Assembly (NCBI RefSeq): GCF_964355755.1
Contig: NC_092670.1
Location: 34,457,795 to 34,521,794, forward strand
DNA length: 64,000 bases
Reading direction: 5' to 3'
From: Antedon mediterranea
Taxonomy: Eukaryota > Echinodermata > Crinoidea > Comatulida > Antedonidae
Translations under genes and position numbers: made by a program
Notes under the pieces: model-generated
The model's input: only the letters and a program-made list of their open reading frames with translations
Told to the model about the DNA's origin: nothing
Database searches by the model: none
Shown: piece after piece, positions 2,905-23,905 of the stretch
Layout: each line of letters begins with the position of its first letter
How positions within the stretch are numbered: position 1 is the first letter of the stretch

Positions 2905-3010
2905 TATTATAATTAATACAATGGTAAACAATGGTAAGGAAGTAAAACAATGGAGATGTTATTTAATTTGAAAAAGACAATGGTTAACGATGCTAAGGAA
3001 GTAAGACAAT
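2905..3010. repeat. Terminal ACAATGG-rich motif of the inverted element
   Basis: The left end has repeated ACAATGGTAAACAATGG and GTAAGACAATAGAG-like words. The reverse complement of 15765-15830 and of 16190-16245 carries the same words in similar order. This marks both outer ends of the element as inverted relatives, beyond the well-conserved arms. The words may be binding sites for element proteins; that is inference. Confidence 0.5.
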
Positions 3011-3211
3011 AGAGTTGTTTGGTTTTGGAAGTTAATCAATGACAACAATAAAAAGACAAGAATATAATGAAGTGATATTTAAGTATGTCTTGATTGAACT
3101 ATACCAACATGTACTTAATTTCTTCCGGAATTTTAACAATGGAGCTTCGCAATGAAAGATTGGTGTAACGTGAAGCAAGATGTTAAGTTTCACTATTTTT
3201 CAAAAAATGCA

Positions 3212-3260
3212 ACAATAATAATAATAATAATAATAACACTAATAATAATAATAATAATAA
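3212..3260. repeat. (AAT)n microsatellite
   Basis: ATA/AAT triplets run with one interruption. It lies in the part of the left arm that has no counterpart in the right arm. Confidence 0.9.
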
Positions 3261-3454
3261 GCTTTATTTAATCACCGATACTTAACTCAACTAAAAGTTG
3301 TTTTTCAGTAAGACCGTGCTCAAAGGAAAACACCAACAATAATAAATGTAAAAAGCAGATATCAAATCAAATAATAAAACAATTACAGAAGCAAAAAACA
3401 AAAGCAGATAATAAAACAATTACAATGAAATAAAATGAAACAAGGATATGACAA

Positions 3455-3640
3455 TGACAATTGGCTGAAAAAAATTGAGTAAATGCCGAATGTAATCCTT
3501 TGACTGTATATAACTCTCGAATATTTTGTCATCTTTACCTCATTCCACAACGCTACAGCCTGACAGACTTAGCATATTCAACCAAAAACCAACAACTAGT
3601 TACTATGGGTTCCGTGATTGATCTTACTATGGACTGTGTG
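3455..3640 (+). repeat. Partial tandem duplication of the SIM-protein 5' region
   Basis: This segment repeats 3710-3900 almost exactly, including the frame that reads TVYNSRIFCHLYL. It lacks the first base pairs of the SIM block and stops after the DLTMD codons. The right arm has only one unit, so the duplication arose in arm A after the arms separated. It does not add a usable start codon. Confidence 0.8.
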
Positions 3641-3859
3641 GGGAAGCTACTTAATGAAACAAAAGATACACGGCGCTTCGACACAATGTTCCGACAGGAA
3701 ATACAACAATGACAATTGGCTGAAACAAATTCAGTAAATGCCGAATGTAATCCTTTGACTGTATATAACTCTCGAATATTTTGTCATCTTTACCTCATTC
3801 CACAACGCTACAGCCTGACAGACTTAGCATATTCAACCAAAAACCAACAACTAGTTACT

Positions 3860-4312
3860 ATGGGTTCCGTGATTGAAATCATTGATCTTACTATGGACTC
3901 TGATGTCGAAGAAGAAGTTATAGATATAACCAATGATTCAGAATCTGAAGACGAAGACATACCAGCTATGACTGGTGCCTATTTTACAGCAGAGGAGGAG
4001 GAAGAGATGGAGGATATGACGTGTTTACTGACGATTCAACCCCCACCTCCAATGAACGTTGATTTAAATAATGTATCTATTATGTATACTGAAGAAGACG
4101 ATCATTATAGATCGAGAATAATTTCTGACGAGGAGAGGATTGTATATGGTGACACGTCATCGGTAGGTGACTACCACCTATTTTTGGCAAGAAAAGCAGA
4201 TGTAAAAGATGAGGTAGAAGATGAGGTGTTTAAGGAAGAGTACCTGAACCCTGTGCTGGAGGCGGAAATTAAGAAAGAAACTATACTACCGAACTTAAGT
4301 ACAAAGAAATAA
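3860..4312 (+). CDS. Acidic protein with tandem SUMO-interaction motifs, arm A
   Basis: The frame is open from 3716, but its first ATG with good context (A at -3, G at +4) is at 3860, giving about 150 residues; a stop lies at 3710-3712. Right after the start come two SUMO-interaction motifs, IIDLTMDSD and VIDITNDSESEDED, each followed by acidic and serine residues of the CK2-site type. The remainder is strongly acidic, with a run of six glutamates and a proline stretch. No RING finger, LxCxE motif or membrane segment is seen. Known SIM proteins bind SUMO-modified partners, often at nuclear bodies; a host-nucleus role for an element protein is inference. It overlaps the next ORF by one base. 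The same gene is intact in arm B, which argues that it was maintained. Confidence 0.65.
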   Translation: MGSVIEIIDLTMDSDVEEEVIDITNDSESEDEDIPAMTGAYFTAEEEEEMEDMTCLLTIQPPPPMNVDLNNVSIMYTEEDDHYRSRIISDEERIVYGDTSSVGDYHLFLARKADVKDEVEDEVFKEEYLNPVLEAEIKKETILPNLSTKK

Positions 4313-4584
4313 TGAGAACAATTGAGGTTTTCATAGAAGAATTAATATTCATTCTGAATGACATGGTTGAATGTTATAACTTTCACGGCTCAAGATATGA
4401 GCAACTCCTAACATTTTTTCGACCAATTCTGGCATTGAAACTTGTGGACAATAGCGCTACCCATTTTGAATTGGCGCTAAACTACTTTCATTTACGTTGT
4501 ATCAATGTTGATGCGTTCGATAAAGCCATAAAGTTGATTACAAATGATTCAGAACTGTTTAATAAGATTCTTAACCAATTGTAA
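4312..4584 (+). CDS. 90-residue helical ORF overlapping the SIM gene, arm A
   Basis: ATG at 4312 shares its A with the TAA stop of the preceding gene (TAATG). The product is short, rich in hydrophobic and aromatic residues and predicted by eye to be mostly helical; no family is recognised. Arm B has the same ORF and the same overlap, with only two residue differences (L11F, V66F). The one-base overlap resembles stop-start coupled translation, but a joined protein made by splicing or frameshift is equally possible. Confidence 0.55.
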   Translation: MRTIEVFIEELIFILNDMVECYNFHGSRYEQLLTFFRPILALKLVDNSATHFELALNYFHLRCINVDAFDKAIKLITNDSELFNKILNQL

Positions 4585-4599
4585 TTTGTACAAATTTAA

Positions 4600-5960
4600 A
4601 TATTATCTTAACACTTTTAATTAATGTTATATATTTTTATAATTCTTATTTCTTTTTTGGTAAATTTATTATTATTATGGTTGTAAAATATATTGAAATA
4701 GAATGTGTGTTAAAATAAAGGTTGTGTTTTTTTTTAAAGCAACAACGAAAATGAAATTTGATCTTTACGTGTTATTTAAGTATTTGATTTATTTTTTTAA
4801 ATTTTCATTTGGGTGAATGAGGGTAATGAGTATGGATGAGTACATAAGAAAAGTATATTACGATCCTAAACATCCTGATAGTTTTGGTGGTGTGGACCGA
4901 CTTTATCAAAATGTAAAAGACGATTTAAATATTACCAAGAGACAAGTTCAAGACTGACTGAACAAGCAAGATACATATACATTACACAAATCCATTCAAC
5001 GTAAATTCAAACGAAACTGGGTACTTGTAAGTGCTATTGATGAACAATGAGAACTGGATTTGGAAAAATAACGTGTATAAATTTTGATTCAGACAAACTG
5101 TTTGCAAAATCAAAGGTTTGACTTTAAATTTCCCAAAATCAAAGGAAGTCAATTTTGAAATAGTTGGTAGCATGGTACGAGGAATCGGACTGGAAAAAAT
5201 AACAACTAATCCTAACAAAATAACCCGTAAACCAAAATCTCGCTTAATATTTATTTTATATTATAAATTTGTTAAAGTAGTTACCCTATTTTAATTCATG
5301 GTAAATTTATTTTTCGAATTAATTTAATTTGTTTTCTTTTCTGTTGAATTTTTATTATTATTATTATGTTTTGTAAAGTGTATTACAATAGAATGTGTAT
5401 TTCAATACATTTTGTTTTTAACATCAACAACAAAAATGAAATTTTATCTTTGCGTGTTGTTTAATTTGTGTATGATGTTTTTCTAATTTATTTATACAAA
5501 AAAAAATATTGACTTTAAATTTCAAAAATTCAAAGGAAGTCAATTTTGAAATAGTTAGTAGCATAGTACAATGAATCGGCACGGAAAAAATAACAACAAC
5601 TAATTTAATTTAATTCTTCTTTTCTGTTGAATTATTATTATTATTATGTTTGTGAAGTGTATTGCAATAGATTTGTTTAATGAAATAAGTTAATTATGTT
5701 TTGACTTATTTTATGTCAGTGTAAATTTGTAAAAGTAGTTTTCCTATTTTAATTCATGGTAAATTTATTTCTTGACTTAATTTAATTAGTTTTCTTTTCT
5801 GTTGAAATATTATTATGTTTTGTAAAGTGTAGTGCAATAGAATGTGTATTGAAATAAATTTTGTTTTTAACAGCAACAATAAAAATGAAATTTGATCTTT
5901 GCGTGTTATTTAACTCCTGTATGATGTTTTTCTAATTTATTTCTACAAAAAGAAAACAAG
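4600..5960. repeat. Diverged tandem units with polyadenylation-like signals, arm A
   Basis: A unit of about 200-250 bp recurs about four times (near 4610, 5271, 5560-5700 and 5730). Each unit contains a TTATTATTATTATG-like stretch, AATAGAATGTGTATT, an AATAAA-like hexamer, then AACAAAAATGAAATTT and ATCTTTGCGTGTT. The last part opens a tiny ORF beginning MKF. A second shared block, TCAAAGGAAGTCAATTTTG, follows two of the units. This looks like repeated 3' ends of one ancestral gene. Arm B has the same array at 13000-14440. Confidence 0.7.
4826..5071 (+). pseudogene. Polinton-type integrase N-terminal fragment, arm A
   Basis: The frame from ATG 4826 encodes residues typical of the Polinton/adintovirus integrase N-terminal region, including YYDPKHPDSFGGVDRLY and QDTYTLHKS. 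It is cut by TGA at 4955-4957 and 5048-5050 and ends with TAA at 5071. The catalytic DDE core is absent. Arm B shares the first TGA but has TGG at the second site, so that lesion is private to arm A. In full elements this enzyme inserts the linear DNA into the host chromosome. It follows the SIM and 90-residue genes on the same strand. Confidence 0.85.
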
Positions 5961-6464
5961 TTTTTGAATTTGTTAAATGTAATTGCAAACACACATAATA
6001 AATGATTGTGATTAAAAATATTCTGTTTACTTCTTTTTATTTTAAACAGTAGGTCTATAATGTAAAGTTATATTTTATATATAATAAATAATATTACAAA
6101 AATAAACATACACAATGTATAAAGCATATATTTATTAAATTTAAATACAATTTTTTTATTTCAAAATGAATTTCATATTCTACGTGATTTCAATTTTAAA
6201 TCTTTTAAGAAAGACACAATACGTACTGCTAAAAAAAAACACGCACACAAAAGAGAACAAATTTGAGACGCACGATGTGCAACGACGCTTTCAATAAGAA
6301 GGCATATTATAAATGTATTTTACAAAATTTATAAAGTGAAGGTAATATTGAGAAATATACATTTTAGATAAATTATAACACATCTAAAATTAATTAGAGA
6401 GATCAATACAATATGGTGATTATATTAATTTGTTTTGATGACTAGAAGAAACATATGAAGACAT

Positions 6465-6965
6465 TCAACGAAATGCAAGCGTTAACACCATACTAGTAAC
6501 TAAGAATGCTACTACTCTGAAAAAAGCATCTCCCTTCCTACACAGAAACAAAATAAAATTAATTAGTAAACGAAACACGCGCATTATTAATAAAATAAAT
6601 AATTTAAGAATATTTGTTCAACTACCCACGAACAAAAAAAAGAAACATACTAACCGATTCATCGTCATTACGAAGTTCAAATAACGAAAACTTTTCCTTG
6701 AAAAATCCACAGGAGACACGTTTTACATTTTCTAACTGCAATTCAGTGTCACATTGTGTCGCAACACATGTACATAAAAGAGTCCTGTCACAAGTCTACC
6801 GACGTTTATATTTCTATCGCTCATCATTTGTTCTAATACATAATACAGCGTTTCCGAAGAAATATCTTTACACAAATCTAACACATTAAAATTGTTTTCC
6901 AACTCTTTACAAGCACGAATAGTACTCTGGAGGATGGGTGAATCCAAAACAACTAACCCCGTCAA
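6465..6965 (-). pseudogene. Bcl-2-like gene, arm A copy, broken
   Basis: This is the inverted counterpart of the gene at 11856-12402. It keeps the BH3-like and BH1-like regions, but the Helitron-like insert at 6966 removes the start and the BH4-like helix. Compared with arm B, one base is missing just after the BH1-like segment, shifting the frame. The downstream exon with the hydrophobic tail is still recognisable at about 6533-6465. The gene is convergent with the integrase fragment. Non-functional by these breaks. Confidence 0.75.
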
Positions 6966-8372
6966 TCTATATATAAATTTACGTAAGGGCAAAATTCGGT
7001 AAATCGTGCCTTACTTTTAGAATGTTTACTCGATGGTATATAAAGTTGGTTCGTACTTTCGGTACTGATTTTAACCACCTGATTTAACCCTATTTACTAA
7101 TTAAATTAAGTTAGATAATTAGTTATTGACGATTAAAACGAATTTAGGTTCAACGATTTGCCCCAAAGAGGGGTGTTTTCCGATCGTGGTATACACTGTA
7201 TAATGGATGTCCATCTTGAAAAATACCCACCACAAAAATGCGAGGAGGCTTCGCATTTTCCTATCTCCTCCTACGATAATTGTTTTTAATAGCTGAAAAC
7301 CGGTTGAACAGCTAGAGTACAGCATCATAATGTTGAAGACAGGCCGATTTTCTTTAAAAAATACTATTTTGATAGATTTAATATACGTTTATACAAATGT
7401 ATTGATTTACGATGAATGGAACATTCCAATCTCTTTTCCACAAATGTCTATTCCCTCAGGCGTCGTAAAGGTAAGTACTGTATACTCATAACAGAAATTT
7501 GATCCATTTTTTTTTCAATCTGTGCTGCAGAGGTTGGATATACATTTTTTTTAAATGGATAATGAGCTAGCGTTTTCAGTCGCCGTATATTATGTACAAA
7601 TCTTTATTATTGCAGTTAAACCACCCACATCATCACCCTTCCCTCACTGGCATGAGTAGCGTTGTAAAGCCAGTAGGCCTAGGATAGGCCTACGGTGCAT
7701 CGCATGCCCTAAACGCAGAACAACTTTGGTGGGTAGGGTAGGAACCAACTTAAGTATGAATTGGCTCTAAGAAACAATTGAAAACCATTAGGCCTACTAA
7801 TTAAGTTGAGTTAGATAATTTAATATTTTCCCCGAATAGAGGTGGTTTTCACAAATTGTTTTACATTATATAAACATACACGTCGTAGTTATGTATCGTT
7901 ACATGTACTGTACTATTTCAATCAACTAGGACGGTGATAGTTTCAACAAAGTATTACATCGCAATGTTTTACTGTGTTTAGTGGTATATTTGTAGAACAT
8001 GAAAACAATATTTCGTTACTAAATGGATAAAGAATATATTTAAAAATTGTTCCTCTTTTGACCCATCCTCTTCCCCATCCCTCAGCCCTAATGTTACATA
8101 CAAAACACAAATTAGGTTTGTTTTAATTTAACTTAAACAATTGGTCTTATTTTGTGACAAGTTTCTCTTTCGGAAGTAATTCCCAGGGTGCTAATTTTAG
8201 TTGAGTACATACATCAGTGTCTATTTATTCGTTCCTGTAAACGACATGTATTATTGTACGTAGGCCTACATTTGAAATCGCCAGTTTTTTAACGCTGAAA
8301 TTATTATGTATTCGAGAACCATCTGTGGGCACGATCTAGATGGTACGCGAGCGAAGCGAGCGTACCATCTAG
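6966..8372 (+). mobile_element. Non-autonomous Helitron-like element
   Basis: The empty site is preserved in arm B: GTCAA followed directly by TTTATATTC. Here that site is split between A and T by 1,407 bp that begin TCTATATATAAATT and end CTAG. The 3' terminus is a perfect 13-bp hairpin (8336-8348 with 8360-8372; loop GAGCGAAGCGA). A TC start, CTAG end, A/T insertion point and no target duplication fit Helitrons, although the hairpin reaching the very end is unusual. No RepHel ORF is present. An internal segment near 7095 is imperfectly repeated near 7797. Confidence 0.8.
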
Positions 8373-8769
8373 TTTATATTCAATGTATGCTAAAACTACT
8401 TCCTCTAAATCAACCATAACGCTCGACAAAACAAATGATAATGGATGTAATTACCAAGAAAGTTCAACTTAAAACATTTATTTTTGTTTTTAAAAAGAAG
8501 TTGTAACATAGAAACTAATTTTGTCAAGATAGTTGTCAAAAATAAATAAATTATATTATACTGAATTTACTTTGTACATTTATTTAATTTAGGCCGTAAT
8601 TAGGTTTGTTGTTCATTTATGATTGTGAAAAGAAAATACATACGAATAAAACAGCTATATAAAAAAAAAATTTAAAAAAATAATGATTCAGTGTTATAAT
8701 TTTATTTACCTGTCATTATGTTAATAAAACATATTCTAAATTTAATTTATATCATGTTAGATATATTTT

Positions 8770-9465
8770 CAAGGACATTTTTTACATAAAAATAAATTTG
8801 TAAAGAAATTTGTTACATAAGATAAATTTGTTAAGAAGCTTGTTTCATAAACATATTTGTGTAGATAAATTTGTTACATAAAAATAATTTTGTAAAGAAA
8901 TTCGTTACATAAATTTATTTTTTACAAGAAGTTTGTAACAGAAAATTATTTTGCAAAGAATTAGTTGCATCAATTGATTTTATCAAACGTATGTAACATA
9001 AAAAATTATGTTGTTGAAAAAAATAGTTTGTAATTCAGTCCATTTACTCAGTAGTTTGTTTAAGTTGTTATGTCTTGTTTGTGTAATATTCTTGTAAATA
9101 AAAGAATTTATTTTTAACCTTTGTAACTATTTTGTAAATATCATTTATAAATTTGTTGTTGTTGTAAATAATTGAATTTATTTATACTTTCTGTATGGAA
9201 ATAATTATACTAATTTTAAATATCATTATTTGTTTATAAATTTAATTGTGATTTTAGATTTCTTCTTTATTTATTATGTCGATTAATTCAGAAACATGTT
9301 ACACAAGAAACAAAAATTGTCATGAAATTCGTTACATAAAAAATAATTTATCAAGAATCTTTGTTTACATACATTTAATGTTATCATTAAATTTGTTATA
9401 AAATTTATTTTTGTCATTAAATTTGTTACATAAAAAATAATTGTTTCATGATTCTTGTTACATTT
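8770..9465. repeat. Degenerate GTTACATAAAAATAA array
   Basis: A loosely repeated 30-45-bp unit, roughly TTTGTTACATAAAAATAAATTTGTAAAGAAA, recurs more than ten times with substitutions and indels. The part up to 9070 is shared with arm B (10900-11180); the rest lies in the spacer. Function is unknown; it could be an old tandem array of the element. Confidence 0.6.
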
Positions 9466-9509
9466 TTTCCTTTTGTTCAACTACTTATATGAAAATTCAA
9501 GTTAAGAAC

Positions 9510-9725
9510 GCAATGACATTGACTGGGCGTTTAGTGTGATTTCCGGACCGCTTTCCTCCGGTAAATTGGTATTTGTTAACAATCTTTTAGAGAATAATTA
9601 CTTTGACAAGTCGTTTGATGATATGACATAGTGTTATGACAAATATCAAACTTACTTTACGGAACTAATTACTGCAACATCTGACATAAGTTTTACGAAG
9701 GGTATACTTATACATTGGATGTTTT
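9510..9725 (+). pseudogene. Packaging ATPase (FtsK/A32-like) fragment
   Basis: The plus-strand frame reads DWAFSVISGPLSSGK, then VFVNNLLENN. After a TAG at about 9630 it continues as CYDKYQTYFTELI. A Walker A loop, a following helix and a CY..YQ..F.EL stretch are characteristic of the Polinton and virophage DNA-packaging ATPase N-terminal half. Walker B and the remainder are missing. It lies in the spacer just inside arm A, as expected if the spacer is the collapsed core of the element. In intact relatives the enzyme packages DNA into capsids. Confidence 0.7.
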
Positions 9726-9809
9726 CGATGTTAGTAAATAACACAATAGTGAATAACTAGATGTTTATTTACACCTTCACTGCTATAATTACAGTTAGAA
9801 TGTCATAAA

Positions 9810-10015
9810 GGGTAAATCGGTATTCTTTAAAGAATTAGGCCTATAAAACAATTAACTTGTCGAGTTGCTTGACGTTAGAGAAGTAAATGTTGTTTGTGTT
9901 TACATGTGTGTTATAGTAGAGAATGAATTATAAAATCATTACATTGTCGAGTTTCTTGACGTTAGAGAAGTAAATGCTGTTTGTGTTTACATGTGTGTCA
10001 TAGTAGAGTTTGTAA
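9810..10015 (+). repeat. Two degenerate copies of the ATPase segment
   Basis: GGTAAATCGGTATTCTTTAAAGAA followed by ACTTGTCGAG...CTTGACG resembles the Walker A region at 9555-9625. The second half is tandemly repeated: 9830-9920 and 9921-10010 share ATTGTCGAG, CTTGACGTTAGAGAAG and TGTGTTTACATGTGTGT. Unit one has TAGGCCTA where unit two has only TA. Confidence 0.6.
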
Positions 10016-10675
10016 TTACGTTTTTTTTACACAACTATCGACAAATACATTTATATTGAAAAAAAACCCCGTAAATATTGTGTCTAAGTGTGATTGGATA
10101 GTGTTGTCGGTAGATTGTTGGAGTAAGTTTATGTTATAGTCTCCCACAAGGTAAGCTTTCTTTTTTTCTAGATTAATCATTTGCATTACACATGTTAATT
10201 CATCATCAAACTTTTGCAAGGAACGTGAGGGTGGTCTATAAACTATACCACAAATAACATTATTTCCTGATTCTAACTCAATCTCAATAAAAATAGTCTC
10301 TGCTTCAGTCATACAAGATGACAGATCATTTCTAATAATGTATGTTAGTTTGTTGGTAACATAGAACGCTACCCCACCACCTCTCTTATCTTTCCTATCA
10401 TTGTGAATCAAACTGTAGCCTGGTAACTGGTATAGATTAATATTATCTTTTTCGGTTAACCAGGTTTCACTGAAGGCAATGACGGAGAAGGCATGTACGA
10501 GTGAGTCTAAATAGTTTGAGATTAAGTCAAACTTATTAACAACACTACGACAGTTTAGTCCAAATATAGAAAAGTTTGATGATAAATTAGAATGTTCAAG
10601 TAAAGAAATTAAGTTATCTTCGTTAAAATATTCTGTGCTCACATTTACATTATCAAAAAGGTCACATTCAAACAT
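10016..10675 (-). pseudogene. LINE endonuclease fragment
   Basis: The minus-strand frame encodes the apurinic-type endonuclease of a Jockey/CR1-group LINE. Landmarks are FGLNCRSVVNKFD near the start, AFSETWLTE, RGGGVAFYV, GIVYRPPS and LVGDYNINLL in order. The frame ends with no reverse transcriptase after it. LINE copies usually lose the 5' end, so a 5' fragment alone suggests a later deletion. It lies in the spacer between the inverted arms and is not part of the Polinton-like gene set. Confidence 0.8.
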
Positions 10676-11436
10676 TTAAATTAGACAGAAAAGGAAATGA
10701 CAAATGAATAAAATTGAGCAAGCTGCTTACAGCAGAGAATAGTTAATATAACACTATATAGCCTAAGTTAACAAGTATGTACAATAAATTACAATATATA
10801 CAATGTAATATGAATTGTTTTATCATGACATACCAACAACAACTAAACGACAGGCAGTGAAACAATAATGATGATTATGGACTTAACAACTTAAACAAAC
10901 TACTGAGTAAATGGACTGAATTACAAACTTTTTTTTTCAACAACATAATTTTTTATGTTACATACGTTTGATAAAATCAATTGATGCAACTGATTCTTTG
11001 CAAAATAATTTTCTGTTACAAACTTCTTGTAAAAAATAAATTTATGTAACGAATTTCTTTAAAAAATTATTTTTATGTAACAAATTTATCTACACAAATA
11101 TGTTTATGAAACAAGCTTCTTAACAAATTTATCTTATGTAACAAATTTTTTTACAAATTTATTTTTATGTAAAAAATGTCCTTGAAAATATATCTAACAT
11201 GATATAAATTAAATTTAGAATATGTTTTATTAACATAATGACAGGTAAATAAAATTATAACACTGAATCATTATTTTTTTATATTTTTTTTTATATAGCT
11301 GTTTTATTCGTATGTATTTTTTTTTCACAATCATAAATGAACAACAAACCTAATTACGGCCTAAATTAAATAAATGTACAAAGTAAATTCAGTATAATAT
11401 AATTTATTTATTTTTGACAACTATCTTGACAAAATT

Positions 11437-11745
11437 TAATTCTGTTATACGGTATTTACTCTATTCAAACTGTGTCATCCTTTGTAAATGTCATTAGCTT
11501 CTGTCGAAACAATGGGTTTTTTCTTTTCTTTGATCATGTGGATTTCCAATTTCAATCCATTTCTATGTCTAATCTGCAATCATTAATTTCCGTTCGCTCC
11601 TTTTTTGTTTATAAAATCTCTCATTATACTAAGGATTAAAAATTACAATCGGCTCCGTATATTCACATTTTTTGACCAAATTAAATGTTAATGTTGTAAC
11701 TTTCTAAACACAAATAAATCACATAAATAATAAAAACACATTTCC
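11437..11745. mobile_element. 309-bp insertion with 10-bp target duplication
   Basis: TGACAAAATT occurs at 11427-11436 and at 11746-11755, while arm A has it once. The inserted sequence has no ORF and no obvious terminal inverted repeat; its right part is A-rich. A long target duplication without inverted ends suggests a short retroposed sequence or a diverged DNA transposon. The family is not recognised. Confidence 0.7.
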
Positions 11746-11855
11746 TGACAAAATTAGTTTCTATGTTACAACTTCTTTTTAAAAACAAAAATAAATGTTT
11801 TAAGTTGTAACTTTCTTGGTAATTACATCCATTATCATTTGTTTTGTCGAGCGTT

Positions 11856-12402
11856 ATGGTTGATTTAGAGGAAGTAGTTTTAGCATACATTGAATATAAA
11901 TTGACGGGGTTAGTTGTTTTGGATTCACCCATCCTCCAGAGTACTATTCGTGCTTGTAAAGAGTTGGAAAACAATTTTAATGTGTTAGATTTGTGTAAAG
12001 ATATTTCTTCGGAAGCGCTGTATTATGTATTAGAACAAATGATGAGCGATAGCAATATAAACGTCGGTAGACTTGTGACAGGACTCGTTTTATGTACATG
12101 TGTTGCGACACAATGTGACACTGAATTGCAGTTAGAAAATGTAAAACGTGTCTCCTGTGGATTTTTCAAGGAAAAGTTTTCGTTATTTGAACTTCGTAAT
12201 GACGATGAATCGGTTAGTATGTTTATTTTTTTTGTTCGTGGGTAGTTTAACAAATATTCTTAAATTATTTATTTTATTAATAATGCGCGTGTTTCGTTTA
12301 CTAATTAATTTTATTTTGTTTCTGTGTAGGAAGGGAGATGCTTTTTTCAGAGTAGTAGCATTCTTAGTTACTAGTATGGTGTTAACGCTTGCATTTCGTT
12401 GA
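11856..12402 (+). CDS. Bcl-2-like protein encoded by the element, arm B
   Basis: ATG 11856 (G at -3 and +4) opens a frame with the order of a Bcl-2 protein. A BH4-like helix, EEVVLAYIEYKL, is followed by a BH3-like IRACKELENNF and a BH1-like NINVGRLVTGL, where the usual tryptophan is valine. Exon 1 probably ends at 12212 before GTTAGT. A second exon at about 12334-12402, after an AG, would supply a short BH2-like start and a hydrophobic C-terminal tail of the tail-anchor type; this intron is inferred. The intron position near BH2 matches a position conserved in animal Bcl-2 genes. Family members control mitochondrial apoptosis, and element or viral copies usually block it; activity here is unproven. 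About 141 residues, short for the family. It is convergent with the integrase and SIM genes. AATAAA signals follow at 12707 and 12731. Confidence 0.65.
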
Positions 12403-12706
12403 ATGTCTTCATATGTTTCTTCTAGTCATCAAAACAAATTAATATAATCACCATATTGTATTGATCTCTCTAATTAATTTTAGATGTGTTATAATTTATC
12501 TAAAATGTATATTTCTCAATATTACCTTCACTTTATAAATTTTGTAAAATACATTTATAATATGCCTTCTTATTGAAAGCGTCGTTGCACATCGTGCGTC
12601 TCAAATTTGTTCTCTTTTGTGTGCGTGTTTTTTTTTAGCAGTACGTATTGTGTCTTTCTTAAAAGATTTAAAATTGAAATCACGTAGAATATGAAATTCA
12701 TTTTGA

Positions 12707-12736
12707 AATAAAAAAATTGTATTTAAATTTAATAAA
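12707..12736 (+). terminator. Polyadenylation signals for the Bcl-2-like gene
   Basis: Two AATAAA hexamers (12707-12712 and 12731-12736) lie about 300 bp after the stop at 12402, with nothing else coding on this strand between them. Arm A has the equivalent on its minus strand. Confidence 0.4.
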
Positions 12737-12999
12737 TCTATGCTTTATACATTGTGTATGTTTATTTTTGTAATATTATTTATTATATATAAAATATAAC
12801 TTTACATTATAGACCTACTGTTTAAAATAAAAAGAAGTAAACAGAATATTTTTAATCACAATCATTTATTATGTGTGTTTGCAATTACATTTAACAAATT
12901 CAAAAACTTGTTTTCTTTTTGTAGAAATAAATTAGAAAAACATCATACAGGAGTTAAATAACACGCAAAGATCAAATTTCATTTTTATTGTTGCTGTTA

Positions 13000-14440
13000 A
13001 AAACAAAATTTATTTCAATACACATTCTATTGCACTACACTTTACAAAACATAATAATATTTCAACAGAAAAGAAAACTAATTAAATTAAGTCAAGAAAT
13101 AAATTTACCATGAATTAAAATAGGAAAACTACTTTTACAAATTTACACTGACATAAAATAAGTCAAAACATAATTAACTTATTTCATTAAACAAATCTAT
13201 TGCAATACACTTCACAAACATAATAATAATAATAATTCAACAGAAAAGAAGAATTAAATTAGATTAGTTGTTGTTATTTTTTCCGTGCCGATTCATTGTA
13301 CTATGCTACTAACTATTTCAAAATTGACTTCCTTTGAATTTTTGAAATTTAAAGTCAATATTTTTTTTTGTATAGGCCTAAATAAATTAGAAAAACATCA
13401 TACACAAATTAAACAACACGCAAAGATAAAATTTCATTTTTGTTGTTGATGTTAAAAACAAAATGTATTGAAATACACATTCTATTGTAATACACTTTAC
13501 AAAACATAATAATAATAATAAAACTTTAACAGAAAAGAAAAATTTAAGTCAAGTCAAGAAATAAATTTATCATGAATTAAAATAGGAAAACTACTTTTAC
13601 AAATTTACACTGACATAAATTAAGTCAAAACATAATTTATTTATTTCATTAAACAAATCTATTGCAATACACTTTACAAACATAATAATAATAATAAAAA
13701 TTCAACAGAAAAGAAAACAAATTAAATTAATTCGAAAAATAAATTTACCATGAATTAAAATAGGGTAACTACTTTAACAAATTTATAATATAAAATAAAT
13801 ATTAAGTGAGATTTTGGTTTACGGGTTATTTTGTTAGGATTAGTTGTTATTTTTTCCAGTCCGATTCCTCGTACCATGCTACCAACTATTTCAAAATTGA
13901 CTTCCTTTGATTTTGGGAAATTTAAAGTCAAACCTTTGATTTTGCAAACAGTTTGTCTGAATCAAAATTTATACACGTTATTTTTCCAAATCCAGTTCCC
14001 ATTGTTCATCAATAGCACTTACAAGTACCCAGTTTCGTTTAAATTTACGGTGAACGGATTTGTGTAATGTATATGTATCTTGCTTGTTCAGTCAGTCTTG
14101 AACTTGTCTCTTGGTAATATTTAAATCGTCTTTTACATTTTGATAAAGTCGGTCCACACCACCAAAACTATCAGGATGTTTAGGATCGTAATATACTTTT
14201 CTTATGTACTCATCCATACTCATTACCCTCATTCACCCAAATGAAAATTTAAAAAAATAAATCAAATACTTAAATAACACGTAAAGATCAAATTTCATTT
14301 TCGTTGTTGCTTTAAAAAAAAACACAATCTTTATTTTAACACACATTCTATTTCAATATATTTTACAACCATAATAATAATAAATTTACCGAAAAAGAAA
14401 TAAGAATTATAAAAATATATAACATTAATTAAAAGTGTTA
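13000..14440. repeat. Diverged tandem units with polyadenylation-like signals, arm B
   Basis: This is the inverted counterpart of the array at 4600-5960. The unit at 13373-13380 has TAGGCCTA where the arm A unit (5493-5494) has only TA. Confidence 0.7.
13978..14223 (-). pseudogene. Polinton-type integrase N-terminal fragment, arm B
   Basis: Inverted copy of 4826-5071. It shares the first in-frame TGA (14094-14092) with arm A, so that stop predates the duplication. It keeps a tryptophan codon where arm A has a second TGA. The frame ends at TAA 13978-13980 and the DDE core is absent. Confidence 0.85.
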
Positions 14441-14464
14441 AGATAATATTTAAATTTGTACAAA

Positions 14465-14737
14465 TTACAATTGGTTAAGAATCTTATTAAACAGTTCTGA
14501 ATCATTTGTAATCAACTTTATGGCTTTATCGAACGCATCAAAATTGATACAACGTAAATGAAAGTAGTTTAGCGCCAATTCAAAATGGGTAGCGCTATTG
14601 TCCACAAGTTTCAATGCCAGAATTGGTCGAAAAAATGTTAGGAGTTGCTCATATCTTGAGCCGTGAAAGTTATAACATTCAACCATGTCATTCAGAATGA
14701 ATATAAATTCTTCTATGAAAACCTCAATTGTTCTCAT
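14465..14737 (-). CDS. 90-residue helical ORF, arm B
   Basis: Inverted copy of 4312-4584, starting at the ATG that overlaps the upstream stop by one base. It carries phenylalanine at residues 11 and 66 where arm A has leucine and valine. It is unrecognised by family. Retention of length and overlap in both arms is the main evidence that it is or was a gene. Confidence 0.55.
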   Translation of the reverse strand: MRTIEVFIEEFIFILNDMVECYNFHGSRYEQLLTFFRPILALKLVDNSATHFELALNYFHLRCINFDAFDKAIKLITNDSELFNKILNQL

Positions 14738-15189
14738 TATTTCTTTGTACTTAAGTTCGGTAGTATAGTTTCTTTCTTAATTTCCGCCTCCAGCACAGGG
14801 TTCAGGTACTCTTCCGTAAACACCTCATCTTCTACCTCATCTTCAACATCGGCTTTTCTTGCCAGAAATAGGTGGTAGTCACCTACCGATGACGTGTCAC
14901 CATATACAATCCTCTCTTCGTCAGAAATTATTCTCGATCTATAATGATCGTCTTCTTCAGTAAACATAATATATACATTATTTAAATCAACGTTCATTGG
15001 AGGTGGGGGATGAATCGCCAGTAAACACGTCATATCCTCCATCTCTTCCTCCTCCTCTGCTGTAAAATAGGCACCAGTCATAGCTAGTATGTCTTCGTCT
15101 TCAGATTCTGAATCATTGGTTATATCTATAACTTCTACTTCGACATCAGAGTCCATAGTAAGATCAATGATTTTAATCACGGAACCCAT
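14737..15189 (-). CDS. Acidic protein with tandem SUMO-interaction motifs, arm B
   Basis: Inverted copy of 3860-4312. The frame is open back to 15333, but the first ATG in good context is at 15189. Both SUMO-interaction motifs are retained (IIDLTMDSD and VIDITNDSESEDED), although the linker and flanks have changed, for instance E to V between them. About 14 of 198 codons of the open frame differ from arm A, yet the SIM cores and the acidic run are unchanged. Role as for arm A: probable binding to SUMO-modified host proteins, by analogy only. Confidence 0.65.
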   Translation of the reverse strand: MGSVIKIIDLTMDSDVEVEVIDITNDSESEDEDILAMTGAYFTAEEEEEMEDMTCLLAIHPPPPMNVDLNNVYIMFTEEDDHYRSRIISDEERIVYGDTSSVGDYHLFLARKADVEDEVEDEVFTEEYLNPVLEAEIKKETILPNLSTKK

Positions 15190-16262
15190 AGTAACTAGTT
15201 GTTGGTTTTTGGATGAATATGCTAAGTCTGTCAGGCTGTAGTGTTGTGGAATGAGGTAAAGATGACAAAATATTCGAGAGTTATATACAGTCAATGGAAT
15301 ACATTCAGCATTTACTAACTTTGTTTCAGCCAATTGTCATTGTTGTATTTCCTGTCGGAACATTGTATCGAAGCGCCGTGTATCTTTTGTTTCATTAAGT
15401 AGCTTCCCCAATGTCATTCAATTTACAAAATGTCCGTTCCAAGATTATCAAACCGTTTTCCAAAAGATTATATTGTAATTACGGGAACTGTTTTAACCAA
15501 TCGTAATTTTGTAAGTGGGGAAACGACGAACCGCGACACATAACTTTAAAAAAACCGCCACTGTAAATTATACTAACATACCTTTTGTTTAAATCTTTTA
15601 AAATTACCGCCACTGTAACTTATATAATACACCTTTTGTTTATATTGCAGATGTTCCTATTTGTTAAAATTTCTCGGAATTAATCAAACAAACGCATATG
15701 TACTACAATAAGCATACTTACCCTCATTTAAATTACCTCCACTAATTCAAATATACATTGTCTAACTTTCTTACCATCGTTAACTATTGTATTTTTCAAA
15801 TAAAATAACAACTCCATTGTCTTACAGTCCTTTTTTGTTTTATTTTAAAAGGAAACAAAGAATTCTTTATGTAAAACGTAAACCATTTAAATGAAAATGA
15901 AACTTAATTTTAAAATTTCCGACAATACATGACGTCATGTAATCAAATTAAATAATACCTATATTGTTATATATCCGAAACATCACACATATTTTATACT
16001 ATCACAACAACTATTGTTTTATTCTTCCGTAGTCATTTACTCTTCAGTACTTTGTACAGCTAGCTGACTAATATTCACAATTTTGTAAAAACAGTATTTT
16101 TATTTATTATTTAATAATTTTATATTATAATGTATATTAATATATAACAATTCTATATAACAATTCTAGTGAAATGATATACTCTATTGTCTTATACTAT
16201 CCCATTGTTAACCATTGTTATAATCACGACTGACTAGACCTTCACCCCCACTACTAACGTCT

Positions 16263-17208
16263 GAGCAGTTTTTGAATTATTAAATCGTATGTATAATAAT
16301 TGTTGTATCAGGTACGAAAGCAAGCTTCTAAACTAAATGGCTATCCACATCAAAAACATAAACTTTCGCATGATACACAATAGAAATAGAAAGCATAGAT
16401 GTTTTGTTTTAAGTTGTTTTTAGTTTGGATTTTTATTCATTTTTAGTTTTTCCAACTATCGATACTTTTCTATTGATTCATACGCGCATGCGCCACATCG
16501 TAGTTTCTGTAAAGTTGATTTTAAAAATGAGTAAATTTCGATCCTAGAAAGTCAAGTCAAAGATATTCGACGGCACCAATATTTAAAATCAAAGTTTATT
16601 ATTTGTATGTACCTTCTCCAACAAAATGATTCTTAAACAACAAAGAAACTAATAGAAACATCAATCAACAGAGTTCAAGATTTAATAAAAAAAATTGTAC
16701 ATAATAAAACAATAAAGCATTTTCACGATTCGAAAAAAGATTAGATCCAAAAATAAAAATTTCACTTAAAAATGATTGGCTAATATATCCTCAATAATTG
16801 AGTTAGCGGTTACAAGTAGAACTCTTTGTGTATTACTAAAATAATATATGCTATACAATATTTACATTAAGTAGTATAGGGCTACTACTGATAATTGAAA
16901 GAACGAACGAATTAGAGAAGAGAGTAAATAAAAAAATCCCAGAACAACATGCAATAAACAATATTCATCATTTTTAATCGTCAAGACACACAGTTTACCG
17001 GAACTGTGAATGATAGATGGCGGAATACTGCAATATTTGCCTTTAGAATAGACCGTACCTATCACTTCAGTTTTGAAAGGTTATTGGAACTGCATCCATT
17101 TAAATGTTATTGTTTAGTCTTTTTACATGTTTTTTTTTTAATATAGCCCAATCACTGATCGCATAATAAGCTTTATAACAATTATTGTTAAGTATGCTTA
17201 TATTATTT
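16263..17208. other. Intergenic region downstream of the large receptor
   Basis: No gene is seen. A stretch at 16360-16560 resembles 29870-30215, including CTTTCGCATGATA and ATAGAAAG words. This extends the segmental duplication that includes the two large receptor copies. Confidence 0.55.
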
Positions 17209-19911
17209 TCAAGTATCATTATCATTGTCATTGGTTCTGTACATTGTTTTCAATGGCTTGAAGCAGTCATCCACTTTATCATCTGATTTCATGTTTTCGG
17301 TTGATTCATTGCTCACTTTGAAGTTACAGTCATAACATTCATTTCTAAACCGTTCAACATGTTCCAAATTATTTGTAACTTTGTGCGAGAGAGATACCTT
17401 ATCTGCTTCATCATCTTTATTACTATCATCTTTAGATTGTCCAACGTTGGCATATTTCATCGTAGATTCAAATGGTTCATTATCTGTTGTCTTGTGTTTC
17501 ACTGCTTTCGTCAGCCTACTTGTTGAAGGCAAGTCACTTTCATCAATAATTGTAAACACATCTTTAGTTTGTGCTACTTTTGTAGGCCTACTTTTCTTCG
17601 CAGACTCAAATGGATCATTGACTTTTTGCTTGGGTCTCGGTATTTCCGCCAGCCTACTTGTTGAAGGCTGATCACTTTCTGTAATACTTGTAAACACATC
17701 TTTAGTTTGTGCTACTTCTTTAAGCCTACTTTCCTTCGTAGATTCAAATGGTTCAGTATCGTCTTGATTGAGTCTGACTACTTTCGTCAGTCTACTTTCA
17801 TTAATACTGGTGGTACATAAATCTTCATCTTGTTCTAATGTCATGTTTTCTTTCGGAAATTGTAATGATCCATCTGCTGTCTTTGGTCTCGCATCTTCTG
17901 CCTGTCTAGTTGAAGGTTGATCGTCGTCATCATCATCAGCAACAACGATATAATATACGTCTTCAAGTGGTTCCACTTTTGTATTTTCTTCCGTAGATTT
18001 AGCTGATTTATGGTCCGTTTGCTTTGATCCTACAACATCTGCCTCCTGACTGTAATAATATGTTGAGAGTTGATAATCATCACCTGCAGTGCTATAGTAT
18101 ATGTCTACAGATTGTTTCACATTCTTGTTATCTTTCGCCTTGAAGGATTCATCTGCTTGCTTTGGTCTAACAGAATCTACTTGTCTATTGGTTGAAAGTC
18201 GATTATCAATATTTCTAATGACATAATATATGTCTTCAGGTCGTTGGGTTGGGTTTTCCTTTTTAGATCTGGACGGCTCGTTGTCTGCTTGATTAGGTCT
18301 CACCGCTTTCTCATGTCTCCTTGTTGAAGATTGATATTCTTCAATGCTATAATATATATCTTCAGATTGTTCCTCTGATTTACTATTATTAGAAACTAAA
18401 GGATTTGAAAATGATTTGAAAGATTCAGTATCTGATGCATTTGGTTTCACATCCTCTGCTTGTTTACTTGCTGAAGTCTCATCATCACCATCATTTTTAT
18501 TTCCATGATATACGGCTTTTTGTTGCATTACTTTTGTTTTTTCCGTTTTCATTCCAGTGTTTGACTTCTCATCGTGGAATCTTTTAAGTACATAAAGCAA
18601 TACAACTATAACAACCAGCAACAGGAGTCCAAGTATTATGATGCTGAAATCTTTTAAATCTTGATCGCAATTTACTTTGTTGAACTGTTGGAATGTATCT
18701 GTACGATGATTGCAAGATACCATTTTGTCTGTTGGCTTACCGTCATTCCCAGAGCTTGTTTGTATCTCATTCACTTCAAATTCTACATAATCTGAGGTAG
18801 GCCTATGCTGAATAGTTGTACGATGGTTGTTAGTTACCATTTTGCCTGTCGCTATACCGTCATCCCCAGAAGTCGTTTTTGTTTCTGCTGGTATAATATC
18901 GGTTACTTCAAATTCTACAGAATCTGAAGTATGCTGATTTTCAGTAATCACCAGACACGTAACACTGTAAATACCAACAGACAAATCTTGAAAGCATGTC
19001 TCTTTGCCAGTATTGTCAACGTTTCCATTCAATATCCAGATATACGTTCTTTGACCAATTCCAGCCGTAGCTACACAATAAAAGCAATGTTCTCCACCAC
19101 CAGCGTTCAAAGTTTGGATTTTCACCACTAACCGCGAGTAAACTTTTACAATTAATGCATAACAATTATTTCTATATTCTGTGTCATTTAGGTTCTCTCT
19201 GGAAGAACAGTAAAAGAAAATACCATCCGGGCCCAATTGAAAGCCTTTGAAAGTTTGATTAAAACTCACTGTCATTGAGGTATCATGCAAACTGTACGAC
19301 TGTGTAATTTTATTTGAACCTTGGATCCATCCTATTGTTATTTCATATGCAACGTCGTTAGAGTTTCTAAAAAATGTATATTCCAGCTTGCAGGCAGTTG
19401 TTACTTCACCTCCCTCTATGATGTACTCTACTAACTCTTCACAGATTATTTTCCATTCACCGTATGTACGCGGATGTATTTTACCATAAACGTCACCAGC
19501 GGTAATCATAAAATGTTGATTATCCTTATTCTGACATGTGTATATTCCTTTATCATTGTTATTATTGAAAGTTAGTAAGAACTGACATTTTACTTCTTGA
19601 AAATTTGTTTCAGAAAATGTTTTGTAGTAATATAACACCGAATAGCTACTAGCGATATAGCTTAAAGCTTGTCCATGTATGCTGTACGTTTTATTTGATG
19701 GAATGACTTTCACGGGTTGCTGGTCTTCTGGGCCATAGGTAACAAAGTAAAAATCAAACTTAACGAGCTGTTCTTCTGCAGTTACAGATCTGAAAATCAG
19801 CAAACTTATCATAAGAATTAGACACAGATTAAAACACGACATAGTGTACCACCTGAGTAGACGTAAACCTACCGTACTGTTGTACAAAGCTTGTGATAAT
19901 TTCTTCTTCAT
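17209..19911 (-). CDS. Single-pass Ig-like receptor with repeated Tyr-x-x-Ile tail
   Basis: An intronless frame of 900 codons. A leader hydrophobic region at residues 24-45 acts as signal peptide; translation could start at Met1 or at Met24 (19842), which has A at -3. The ectodomain has three divergent Ig-like units, each ending in a G-I-Y/F-C type motif: KGIYTC (121-126), DGIFFYC (229-235) and VGIYSVTC (312-319). Trp195 and Trp292 sit at the expected places in the last two. A stalk repeat (SDSVEFEV..., SDYVEFEV...) covers 329-404. The membrane helix is about 422-443. The 457-residue tail repeats every 40-45 residues an acidic-Tyr motif: EDIYYSI, EDIYYVI, VDIYYST, EDVYYIV. It then degrades to KDVFTSI and KDVFTII, with Tyr replaced by Phe. 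YxxI/L motifs recruit SH2 proteins in immune receptors, so a phosphotyrosine signalling role is inferred. The ligand is unknown. Confidence 0.8.
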   Translation of the reverse strand: MKKKLSQALYNSTVGLRLLRWYTMSCFNLCLILMISLLIFRSVTAEEQLVKFDFYFVTYGPEDQQPVKVIPSNKTYSIHGQALSYIASSYSVLYYYKTFSETNFQEVKCQFLLTFNNNNDKGIYTCQNKDNQHFMITAGDVYGKIHPRTYGEWKIICEELVEYIIEGGEVTTACKLEYTFFRNSNDVAYEITIGWIQGSNKITQSYSLHDTSMTVSFNQTFKGFQLGPDGIFFYCSSRENLNDTEYRNNCYALIVKVYSRLVVKIQTLNAGGGEHCFYCVATAGIGQRTYIWILNGNVDNTGKETCFQDLSVGIYSVTCLVITENQHTSDSVEFEVTDIIPAETKTTSGDDGIATGKMVTNNHRTTIQHRPTSDYVEFEVNEIQTSSGNDGKPTDKMVSCNHRTDTFQQFNKVNCDQDLKDFSIIILGLLLLVVIVVLLYVLKRFHDEKSNTGMKTEKTKVMQQKAVYHGNKNDGDDETSASKQAEDVKPNASDTESFKSFSNPLVSNNSKSEEQSEDIYYSIEEYQSSTRRHEKAVRPNQADNEPSRSKKENPTQRPEDIYYVIRNIDNRLSTNRQVDSVRPKQADESFKAKDNKNVKQSVDIYYSTAGDDYQLSTYYYSQEADVVGSKQTDHKSAKSTEENTKVEPLEDVYYIVVADDDDDDQPSTRQAEDARPKTADGSLQFPKENMTLEQDEDLCTTSINESRLTKVVRLNQDDTEPFESTKESRLKEVAQTKDVFTSITESDQPSTSRLAEIPRPKQKVNDPFESAKKSRPTKVAQTKDVFTIIDESDLPSTSRLTKAVKHKTTDNEPFESTMKYANVGQSKDDSNKDDEADKVSLSHKVTNNLEHVERFRNECYDCNFKVSNESTENMKSDDKVDDCFKPLKTMYRTNDNDNDT

Positions 19912-20024
19912 ACCAAATGATCAATGTAGATATGAACAAAACTAATCAAAGAACTAGTTAGACCGACATTCAAACACAACCTTTCAAATGATAAACAATC
20001 AGAAATAAAAAGTATACAAACTTG

Positions 20025-20982: not shown

Positions 20983-23905
20983 ATTTGTGCGTGGTACACT
21001 CAGCTAGCCCGTCTCGGTACTGGCATCTCCTCGATGGCTGTCCGTTACTTTACTGCTGACCTAAAATCTTTCAACCAGGGTAAATGTTTCTACGATAATC
21101 CATCTTTCTTCAACATTGCTAAGGAGCTCCGGATATTGAGAAAACCGAGAGGTTCTCGTGGTGGCAGAAATAAAAGTCGTAAGATTAAAGTCGTTATTGG
21201 TAATGGGCGTAGGCCTAGGCCTACCACCATGGCCGCCCTCAACAAAAGTGGCTCTTCTCGAAATAATCTGGTCACAATTAAACTACGTAGATCAAGAGTT
21301 TCTTGTCCGAGACTTTTCCTTGCTAATGCCCGCTCTGTTAAAAATAAGATTGATGAATTTGAAGCCACCATTTCCAAATTCAAAGTTGATATAGCTGTGT
21401 TAACAGAGACTTGGCTGAATGATGCTACTATTGATTTTGTGAATTGTTCCGGTTTTAAAAAGTTCACGAAAAATAGATGCAACAAGAGAGGTGGTGGTGT
21501 TGCTATTTTTGTTGGTGATGATTTTGCAAGTTGTTAACTTCGCTACACGAAAGGATGCCCTGTTGGACAAGATATTTTTGAGTCGTGCTGATCTTTACCA
21601 TCTTCCGCAACGCTTAGCGCCACTGGGTCGGAGTGACCATAATGCCATCCTATTGGAACCACTGATTGAATTACCTCAGCACAAGCGTCTATCAGTGCGT
21701 TCTCAGCCATATCGTGACTCCTCTGTTTTGTCCTTTGGTCAATGGGTTACAACCCATGAGTGGAATGATGTGCTGAATATTGAGGACGTCAATCGAAAAA
21801 CCAAAATGTTCTCTTCAATTTTGAATGGTGCTTTTAACAAGATATTTCCTGTGCTGAGTAGGAACAAGCGCACTGCTGACAAGCCCTGGATGTCCGACAA
21901 GATTCGAAGATTAATTGACTCTAGACAAAATTTGTTTCGTAGGTTTGGTAGAACGGATGAGTGGCGTTCAATTCGCAACTTAGTCCAAGATTGTATTAGA
22001 AAGGCTAAAAACAAATATTATTGTAATTCCTTATTAAGTCTTAAACGTAACAACCCTGCCATGTGGCATAAAGGTATTAAACAACTATGTAATCTTAAGA
22101 CTAAAAATACTAATTTCACCTTGCCTGGGCTGTCCAAAGTTGAAACTGCCTCTGAGATTAATGCCCATTTCTCTAGTGTTTGTAATGCCATCCCTCCTCT
22201 TAATTTAAACGATTTGCCTGCTTATCTCCCAGCCCCTGGGCCACCACCTTTAATATATGCTGGTCAGGTCCTAAAAGCCCTTTGTAATCTTAAGCCTAAC
22301 AAAGCTGGCCATCCAGATGAACCTCCTATTAAACTATATAGAGATTTTGCTCCTGAACTTGCTGAACCTGTTGCGGATATCTTCAATCATGCATTGAAGG
22401 ATGGTGTTTTCCCCGACCTTTGGAAAAGGGCTACTGCAGTTCCCATTCCTAAAACAGTGAATGCTAGTTCTGTCTCTGACCTTAGACCTATTTCCCTTAC
22501 CTATGTTCTTGCCAGGGTATTTGAATCTTTTATTGTTAAGTGGATTCTTGAAGATATTAAGGGTAAATTAGATTCTCGTCAATTTGGTAGTAGGAAAAAG
22601 GCTTCCTCAACTCACTATCTTGTTAGTCTTATTGACTCTACACTCAAAGATGTTGAGAAGGGTAAATGTTATGTTAACCTATGTGCCACTGACTTTACTA
22701 AAGCTTTTGATCGTGTTGATCATAATGTTATTATTATAAAGTTGATTGAACTGGGTGTGAGGTCGTCCATAATTCCCATCGTCTGCAGCTTTCTCACTTC
22801 CCGTTCTCTCAACACCAAGTTTGCTGGGATTTTGTCATCTTCAAAGTCACTGACTTGTGGTGTCCCACAGGGGACATTGCTTGGCCCTGTACTTTTCCTA
22901 GTACTTATTAACGATGCTTGTGTTGATTGCTGCAGACGATGGAAATATGTGGATGACCTCACCCTTGGGGAGGTCGTTCGCAAAGGTGATTTGCCTTCCA
23001 TGCAATCCCTGTTAGATGATCTGAGTGTTTGGTGTTCATCCAATAATATGATACCCAAACCCTCCAAATGCCATATCTTGGTTGTCAATTTTCTTAAGGA
23101 CAAGTCGGATGATATTATATCGCCTTCTTTTAGTCTGAGTGGTTCCATTTTACAAGTAGTTGATCACATGACGCTTCTTGGTGTAATCATTCAAAATGAC
23201 CTGAAATGGGAACTTAACACTAATAATATTGTGTCTAGAGCTTCTAGACGTTTATTTTCCTTGTGCATTTTGAAGAAAGCAGGAATCTTAATTAATGATC
23301 TGTTGACTGTTTATATGGCGTATATAAGACCTATTTTAGAATATGCTGCCCCTGTTTGGCATGGCGCTATCACTAAGGACATGTCCAAGTCTATTGAAAA
23401 GGTACAAAAGAGAGCATTGCGTATCATGCTAGGTAACAACTATTTGTGCTATGATCATGCATTGTCTGTTACTGGTTTACCTACTCTTGTAGAGAGAAGA
23501 AACAAACTTGTGTTGTCCTTCGGGGAAGGCTTATTAAAATCCGAGCTGTTTAGAGAAATACTTCCCCCTCTTCATAAGCCAGCTCGGTCTCTCAGAGTCA
23601 ACCGCTTTCTTGAAGTACCTCATTGTAAAACCAGCAGACTTAGGTCGTCTCCAGTTCCCACCATGGTGGATATAATTAATAGGCACCACTAGCTCTTTTT
23701 TAGATATGTAATAAGTGAATGTTTTAAGGTTTTTTATTCATGTATGTTTTTAATTGTATGGTACGATATCTAATTTTATTAAGATGTTTCTATTTTTATA
23801 GCAATTTTAACTAATTTTTAGTCATTTGTAATACATTTCATTTCAGTCCTTGACTGTCGTTTTGTAATATATTTTTATATACCGAATAAATAAATTTAAA
23901 AAAAT
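20983..23905 (+). mobile_element. LINE (Jockey/CR1-like non-LTR retrotransposon)
   Basis: This is inserted in short receptor copy 2. The 3' end is an A-rich tail, ATAAATAAATTTAAAAAAA, directly before host sequence ATGTGCTTGC. The 5' end follows host AAAGAGGTTCC. A target duplication is not clear. It contains an endonuclease remnant and a full reverse transcriptase on the plus strand. The doubled palindrome TAGGCCTAGGCCTA at 21210-21223 lies in its coding region. Confidence 0.85.
20998..23692 (+). pseudogene. LINE ORF2: endonuclease remnant and reverse transcriptase
   Basis: The first frame (to 21537) carries a basic linker and endonuclease residues LFLANARSVKNKIDEF, VLTETWLND and RGGGVAIFVGDD, then stops. 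A second frame (21525-23692) begins in the last part of the endonuclease, LAPLGRSDHNAIL. It continues with the reverse transcriptase: DFTKAFDRVDH, GVPQGTLLGP and the catalytic KYVDDLT, then a thumb-like region with RALRIMLG. The middle of the endonuclease is missing at the frame junction (about 21525-21540), so an internal deletion has inactivated the copy. In active elements the protein nicks the target and copies its RNA into it. Confidence 0.85.

Follow-up and report, generated by a model that had tools for sequence, protein, structure and literature searches.

In a 64,000-nucleotide stretch of DNA from the feather star Antedon mediterranea (hereafter the window), an inverted repeat of approx. 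12 kb carries a Bcl-2-like gene in each of its two arms (Table 1). In arm B, the ATG at 11856 opens a reading frame whose first stop ends at 12245, and the arm A copy is broken. Judged from its sequence and profile evidence, the frame at 11856-12212 probably represents a genuine Bcl-2-like gene that has diverged strongly.

Table 1. Positions of the Bcl-2-like gene, its putative parts, the neighbouring frames and the inverted repeat within the window
Feature	Position	Strand	Basis or remark
Bcl-2-like frame of arm B, putative coding exon 1 (119 aa)	11856..12212	+	Pfam PF00452, PDB match
BH4-like segment, residues 4-16, VVLAYIEYKL	11865..11903	+	our reading against Bcl-xL rows
BH3-like segment, residues 27-41, IRACKELENNF	11934..11978	+	our reading of Bcl-xL alignment
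BH1-like segment with NVGR (W to V)	12036..12092	+	sequence and Pfam alignment
Putative intron (alternative acceptor would end at 12329)	12213..12333	+	sequence motifs
Putative second coding exon, hydrophobic tail (22 aa)	12334..12402	+	hydropathy
P2, helical 90-aa frame, arm B	14465..14737	-	twin 4312-4584 (+) in arm A
P1, acidic 150-aa frame, arm B	14737..15189	-	twin 3860-4312 (+) in arm A
Arm B of inverted repeat (4.5 kb)	10880..15410	.	
Spacer between arms (1.8 kb)	9075..10879	.	LINE endonuclease fragment 10016-10675 (-)
Arm A of inverted repeat (5.4 kb including insert)	3639..9074	.	
Arm A Bcl-2 copy, main part, one-base frameshift	6465..6965	-	
Arm A Bcl-2 copy, N-terminal piece severed by insert	8373..8417	-	
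Helitron-like insert (1407 bp) in arm A Bcl-2 copy	6966..8372	.	TC...CTAG ends, target between A and T, 3' hairpin

Identity and layout of the Bcl-2-like gene

The family assignment comes from a profile match. When the putative first exon alone (119 residues) was compared with the 24,736 Pfam models, residues 36-100 matched positions 15-79 of the 100 positions of PF00452 (E = 8e-5; 23.6 bits); with the whole frame instead, the same residues matched with E = 9.5e-5. None of eight control sequences (seven shuffles and one reversed version of the protein) matched any Pfam model at a limit of E 10, a result to be read with the fact that the HMMER filters discard most matches above 0.1. As the Pfam scans covered 41 stretches of the window, some of them overlapping, a match with E = 8e-5 is hardly due to chance. 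Moreover, a sequence search of the PDB (177,635 distinct sequences) gave one sole match at E ≤ 10, i.e., the poxvirus Bcl-2-like protein FPV039 (E = 0.17; residues 8-85). This E value means little by itself, and adds weight because the single match belongs to the expected family. The Bcl-2-like identity proposed by an earlier interpretation of the same DNA (the sequence-only reading) is thus supported, albeit with modest statistics.

The same interpretation had described BH4-, BH3- and BH1-like segments in the correct order and a valine in place of the BH1 tryptophan, and both features are present, the latter as NVGR at residues 69-72, at the place where NWGR is expected. The BH4 and BH3 labels represent our reading against the Bcl-xL rows; the BH4 model that Pfam keeps apart from PF00452 gave no match to the frame, and the BH3-like segment does not contain the usual Gly-Asp pair. 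Structure prediction, suggested earlier as a check of the identity, yielded a model with Bcl-2-like helices but with low confidence. In a re-alignment of folds, the ranking of the model points to Bcl-2, with GIV66 (a grouper iridovirus Bcl-2-like protein) at row 9.

The gene likely has the standard layout of a pro-survival Bcl-2 gene, with an intron, which is itself likely to be present, between the two putative coding exons. The candidate exon border is located 47 residues after NVGR, as compared to 49 residues from NWGR (or NWGP) to GGW (or GDW) in Bcl-xL (computed in nine of the ten proteins fetched; the tenth shows the same spacing by alignment). In mouse pro-survival Bcl-2 genes and in sponge and placozoan Bcl-2-like genes, the coding exons have been described as meeting at GGW, the BH2 motif, and the mouse pro-survival genes are described as carrying the membrane tail on the last exon (PMC8998228). 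The position thus agrees with the earlier proposal that the intron sits close to BH2, in line with animal Bcl-2 genes, whereas the exact junction proposed there (12212/12334) is ambiguous. The donor at 12213 (TCG/GTTAGT) matches MAG/GTRAGT at six of nine bases, which is ordinary, as 696 of the 3759 forward-strand GT sites in the window score at least 6/9, and five others sit inside the gene. Position 12299 has a branch-like TACTAAT, and a TAG closes a pyrimidine stretch at 12329. Joining this best acceptor (exon from 12330) to donor 12213 puts the hydrophobic tail out of frame; the tail frame is kept either by donor 12213 with an AAG acceptor four bases later, the junction of the sequence-only reading, or by the weaker donor 12221 with the TAG. 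The putative tail reaches a 15-residue hydropathy of 2.47, a value attained by 26 of 1246 control stretches. As the two arms are almost identical in this region, arm A provides no independent test of the intron.

The inverted repeat and its surroundings

Apart from gaps, the two arms are 98-99% identical (1722 of 1753, 1688 of 1707, 156 of 157 and 550 of 557 bases are the same in four slightly overlapping alignment blocks), and approx. 0.3 kb of arm B (11437-11742) is missing from arm A. Tandem repeats of approx. 31 bp are located near both inner arm ends (8777-9013 and 10994-11195), with related units in the spacer (9278-9369). As had been stated from the sequence alone, the Bcl-2-like gene lies in both arms and is broken in arm A, by the 1407-base insert as well as by the one-base frameshift. 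In the part of exon 1 compared between the arms by eye, all three base changes alter the amino acid. Helitrons begin with 5' TC, end with 3' CTRR and a hairpin, and insert between A and T without duplication. Judged by its ends, the insert appears to be Helitron-like, and arm B holds the matching empty site, the insertion having occurred without target duplication. The 3' hairpin is strong, with the last 45 bases folding at -24.7 kcal/mol, and its extension to the very end of the insert is not typical of Helitrons.

Two further frames, P1 and P2 (together 14465-15336 (-) in arm B and 3713-4584 (+) in arm A), accompany the gene in both arms, where the start of P2 overlaps the stop of P1 as TAATG. 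Between the arms, P1 differs by 4 synonymous and 9 non-synonymous codons (dN 0.026, dS 0.045) and P2 by 0 synonymous and 2 non-synonymous codons, differences that give little sign of strong constraint. Neither frame had a Pfam match above the cut-off; the matches below it (DUF3244 for P1; SopA, E = 0.15, for P2) were disregarded, as were Baculo_11_kDa and similar below-cut-off matches and the weak PDB sequence matches of P2 to U2AF65 (E = 0.18) and of P1 (E = 2.1). The model of P2 predicts five helices (pLDDT 61). A reading of P2 as a death-fold (CARD-like) protein was rejected, as Pfam gave no CARD match and Foldseek against the PDB gave nothing below E 5.7.

Elsewhere in the window, 21491-23692 (+) encodes a LINE reverse transcriptase. 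One Antedon mediterranea protein matches it at 95% identity over 52% of the query, and its top match, also from Antedon, is 63% identical over 98%, which places the host among the crinoids, in that genus or close to it. Related transmembrane-type frames are clustered at 463-1101, 17209-19920, 23838-24341, 27931-28566 and 30933-32471, and parts of this cluster recur in inverted order to the left of the 12-kb repeat. In the long ones, tyrosine motifs such as EDIYYSI recur in the tail, and the frames of the cluster possibly encode immune-type receptors; a C-type lectin domain frame (24781-25203 (-); Pfam E = 2.8e-14) is located between receptor-like frames. A 4-kb satellite with 48-bp units (39985-44099) leaves long hydrophobic open frames; a mitochondrial insertion at 40-44 kb, considered on account of the strong T skew, was rejected since the stretch consists of this satellite. 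Scans of the window with Rfam and for tRNAs found nothing.

Host gene, mobile unit or chance frame

We favor, with a probability of approximately 0.5, the explanation that the locus holds a fast-evolving Bcl-2-like gene of the pro-survival rather than the pro-death type, owned by the host rather than by a virus and duplicated together with P1 and P2 in the 12-kb inverted repeat. The gene would be built like an ordinary animal pro-survival Bcl-2 gene, in which one exon encodes the helical bundle, the intron lies at the BH2 position and the last exon encodes the membrane tail. Its product would be a small helical bundle anchored by its tail to the outer mitochondrial membrane, and the groove of this bundle may bind the BH3 segments of death-promoting relatives and thereby delay apoptosis.

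Several results weigh against this explanation. The PF00452 score of 23.6 bits is below the curated cut-off of 31.4, and Pfam itself would thus make no call. An hhalign comparison of the frame with ten vertebrate Bcl-xL rows gave a probability of 1.6% (1.4% in a repeat run), with 7 of 300 shuffles scoring as high or higher. Pairwise global alignments with the ten Bcl-xL proteins (loop removed) passed the 5% level in four of the ten tests, in which 11, 58, 83 and 99 of 2000 shuffles reached the score, and in the remaining six tests the score was reached by 171, 401, 409, 645, 720 and 1070 of 2000 shuffles. A clear BH2 was not found, as GGW is absent and LRNDDES stands at the expected place. The predicted model has a mean pLDDT of 40 and took in ten residues read from the putative intron; its E values in Foldseek against the PDB were never below 0.9, and the leading matches in the viral Foldseek library were unrelated phage and virus proteins. 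In a collection of 5.8 billion proteins, searched by shared 5-residue words only, five candidates were found for the Bcl-2-like frame, none with E ≤ 1; as this collection holds named Antedon mediterranea proteins, the result is a poor fit with an old host gene. Finally, overlapping, apparently intronless frames such as P1 and P2 would be unusual for a host locus.

The below-cut-off Pfam score, the low hhalign probability and the six unremarkable pairwise tests also speak for another explanation, in which the match to Bcl-2 is spurious and the frame either arose by chance in AT-rich DNA or encodes an unrelated helical protein. Of 500 simulated arms, 12 contained an open frame of 140 or more codons and none contained one of 199 codons, the stop-to-stop length of P1, and frame length alone is therefore weak evidence. 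We nevertheless consider this explanation improbable, given the match with E = 8e-5 and the eight unmatched controls, the PDB sequence match and the fold ranking, which both point to Bcl-2, and the agreement of the exon border position with Bcl-xL. The weak Bcl-xL tests thus suggest that the evidence is that of a family profile and not of close kinship with Bcl-xL.

A different possibility, which we regard as tenable though not favored, is that an endogenised DNA virus or an unknown mobile element took up a host Bcl-2 gene together with its intron, and that the arms are the inverted terminal repeats of this unit or a head-to-head junction of it. In this case, P1 and P2 would be additional accessory genes, and the Bcl-2-like protein would block apoptosis of the infected cell. 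The presence of both the Bcl-2-like gene and the TAATG overlap of P1 and P2 in each arm is consistent with such a unit, as are the short, loop-less protein and its departures from NWGR and GGW. Departures from NWGR are reported for some viral Bcl-2 proteins, and conservation of the BH2 GGW reportedly does not extend to the members from human adenovirus, murine herpesvirus and poxviruses (PMC7199394). The same holds for the failure to find relatives, in the protein collection for the Bcl-2-like frame and in IMG/VR for this frame, P1 and P2 (a Bcl-xL alignment used as query was also unmatched in IMG/VR), and for the precedents of a turkey herpesvirus and of mammal-associated adintoviruses described below (PMC7199394, PMC11071296). 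The guanine plus cytosine (GC) content of the arms (27-29%; 21% in one short stretch of arm A) is below that of three of the four flanking stretches (32-35%); as the fourth (44300-50300) has 29.7% GC, base composition is a weak hint only.

On the other hand, Pfam matched no family of polymerase B, integrase, capsid, ATPase or protease in the window frames scanned, i.e., 18 of the 29 stop-to-stop frames of at least 60 aa overlapping 3000-16500 (four of the other eleven being arm twins of scanned frames) and 19 of the 28 of at least 100 aa in 16500-64000, with shorter or broken remnants falling outside the scan. Neither AGTAGT nor ACTACT occurs within 60 bases of the outer arm ends, and the outer flanks of the arms differ, with no shared flank and no target duplication. 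These results count against a viral or mobile unit in general. A more specific version is in our view less likely than not; in it, an echinoderm DNA virus or virus-like element of unknown type would have acquired a host Bcl-2 gene along with the ancestral BH2 intron, and its terminal repeats would have fused into the 12-kb repeat, so that the apoptosis blocker was present in double dose beside the accessory genes P1 and P2.

The same scan and end results also count against the Polinton-like carrier proposed by the sequence-only reading, in favor of which there is no more than the inverted repeat and its overall size of approx. 12 kb. In intact vertebrate Mavericks, the terminal repeats are described as spanning 46-1,447 bp, the ends as commonly being (AGT)2, the target duplications as measuring 6 bp and the eight conserved genes (seven in Xenopus tropicalis) as lacking introns (PMC8097293), whereas here arm B is 4.5 kb long, arm A reaches 5.4 kb including its insert, and the Bcl-2-like gene likely has an intron. 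As the scanned frames matched no hallmark family, neither an end motif nor a target duplication was found and the arms are oversized, the Polinton assignment fails, and a Polinton/Maverick-type carrier is highly improbable.

Comparison with known systems

The feather-star gene resembles animal pro-survival Bcl-2 genes (Bcl-xL and Bcl-2; PF00452) in its profile match, the order of its BH4-, BH3- and BH1-like segments, the putative exon border at the BH2 position and the hydrophobic tail on the putative last exon. It differs from them in that the long loop joining helices 1 and 2 is missing, NVGR stands for NWGR, GGW and the GD of BH3 are absent and the identity is very low. Echinoderms are reported to possess several Bcl-2 genes (PMC8998228); if owned by the host, the gene would be one more fast-evolving Bcl-2 paralogue, useful for studying how far the fold can drift.

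Among viral genes, the Bcl-2 homologue vNr-13 is reported to occur twice in the herpesvirus of turkeys (HVT), within inverted repeats, and to consist of two exons separated by one intron, its structure being conserved with Nr-13 proteins (PMC7199394). The feather-star gene is alike in its two copies in inverted repeats, its putative two exons and one intron, its BH domains and its putative membrane tail. Conversely, vNr-13 is reported as 64.4% identical to chicken Nr-13 and lies within a whole herpesvirus genome (PMC7199394), whereas the scanned frames of the feather-star locus contained no virus genes, and no close relative was found. FPV039 and GIV66 are linked to the gene by the sole PDB sequence match and by row 9 of the fold re-alignment, respectively, but these scores are weak and give no evidence of common viral descent.

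Among mobile elements, the planarian Burro giant Gypsy elements are reported to carry a BCL2-like motif (PMC6431247). They share with the feather-star locus, if it is mobile, a BCL2-like domain on a mobile element, but theirs lies in a retrotransposon polyprotein, none of which was found here. Of the adintoviruses associated with mammals, it is stated that most appear to carry genes for anti-apoptotic homologues, candidate oncogenes or both (PMC11071296). Adintoviruses and Polintons/Mavericks are similar to the feather-star locus in their inverted repeats and dissimilar in that the window scans found no core gene or terminal motif. The titles and abstract starts among the literature matches listed named no Bcl-2 gene in a crinoid element. 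A viral or mobile origin would represent the capture of a host apoptosis gene with its intron in an invertebrate and would point to an undescribed group of echinoderm viruses. Overall, the vNr-13, Burro and adintovirus cases indicate that mobile or viral Bcl-2 genes are of a known kind, of which the feather-star gene, if its carrier is shown, would be a new and distant echinoderm member.
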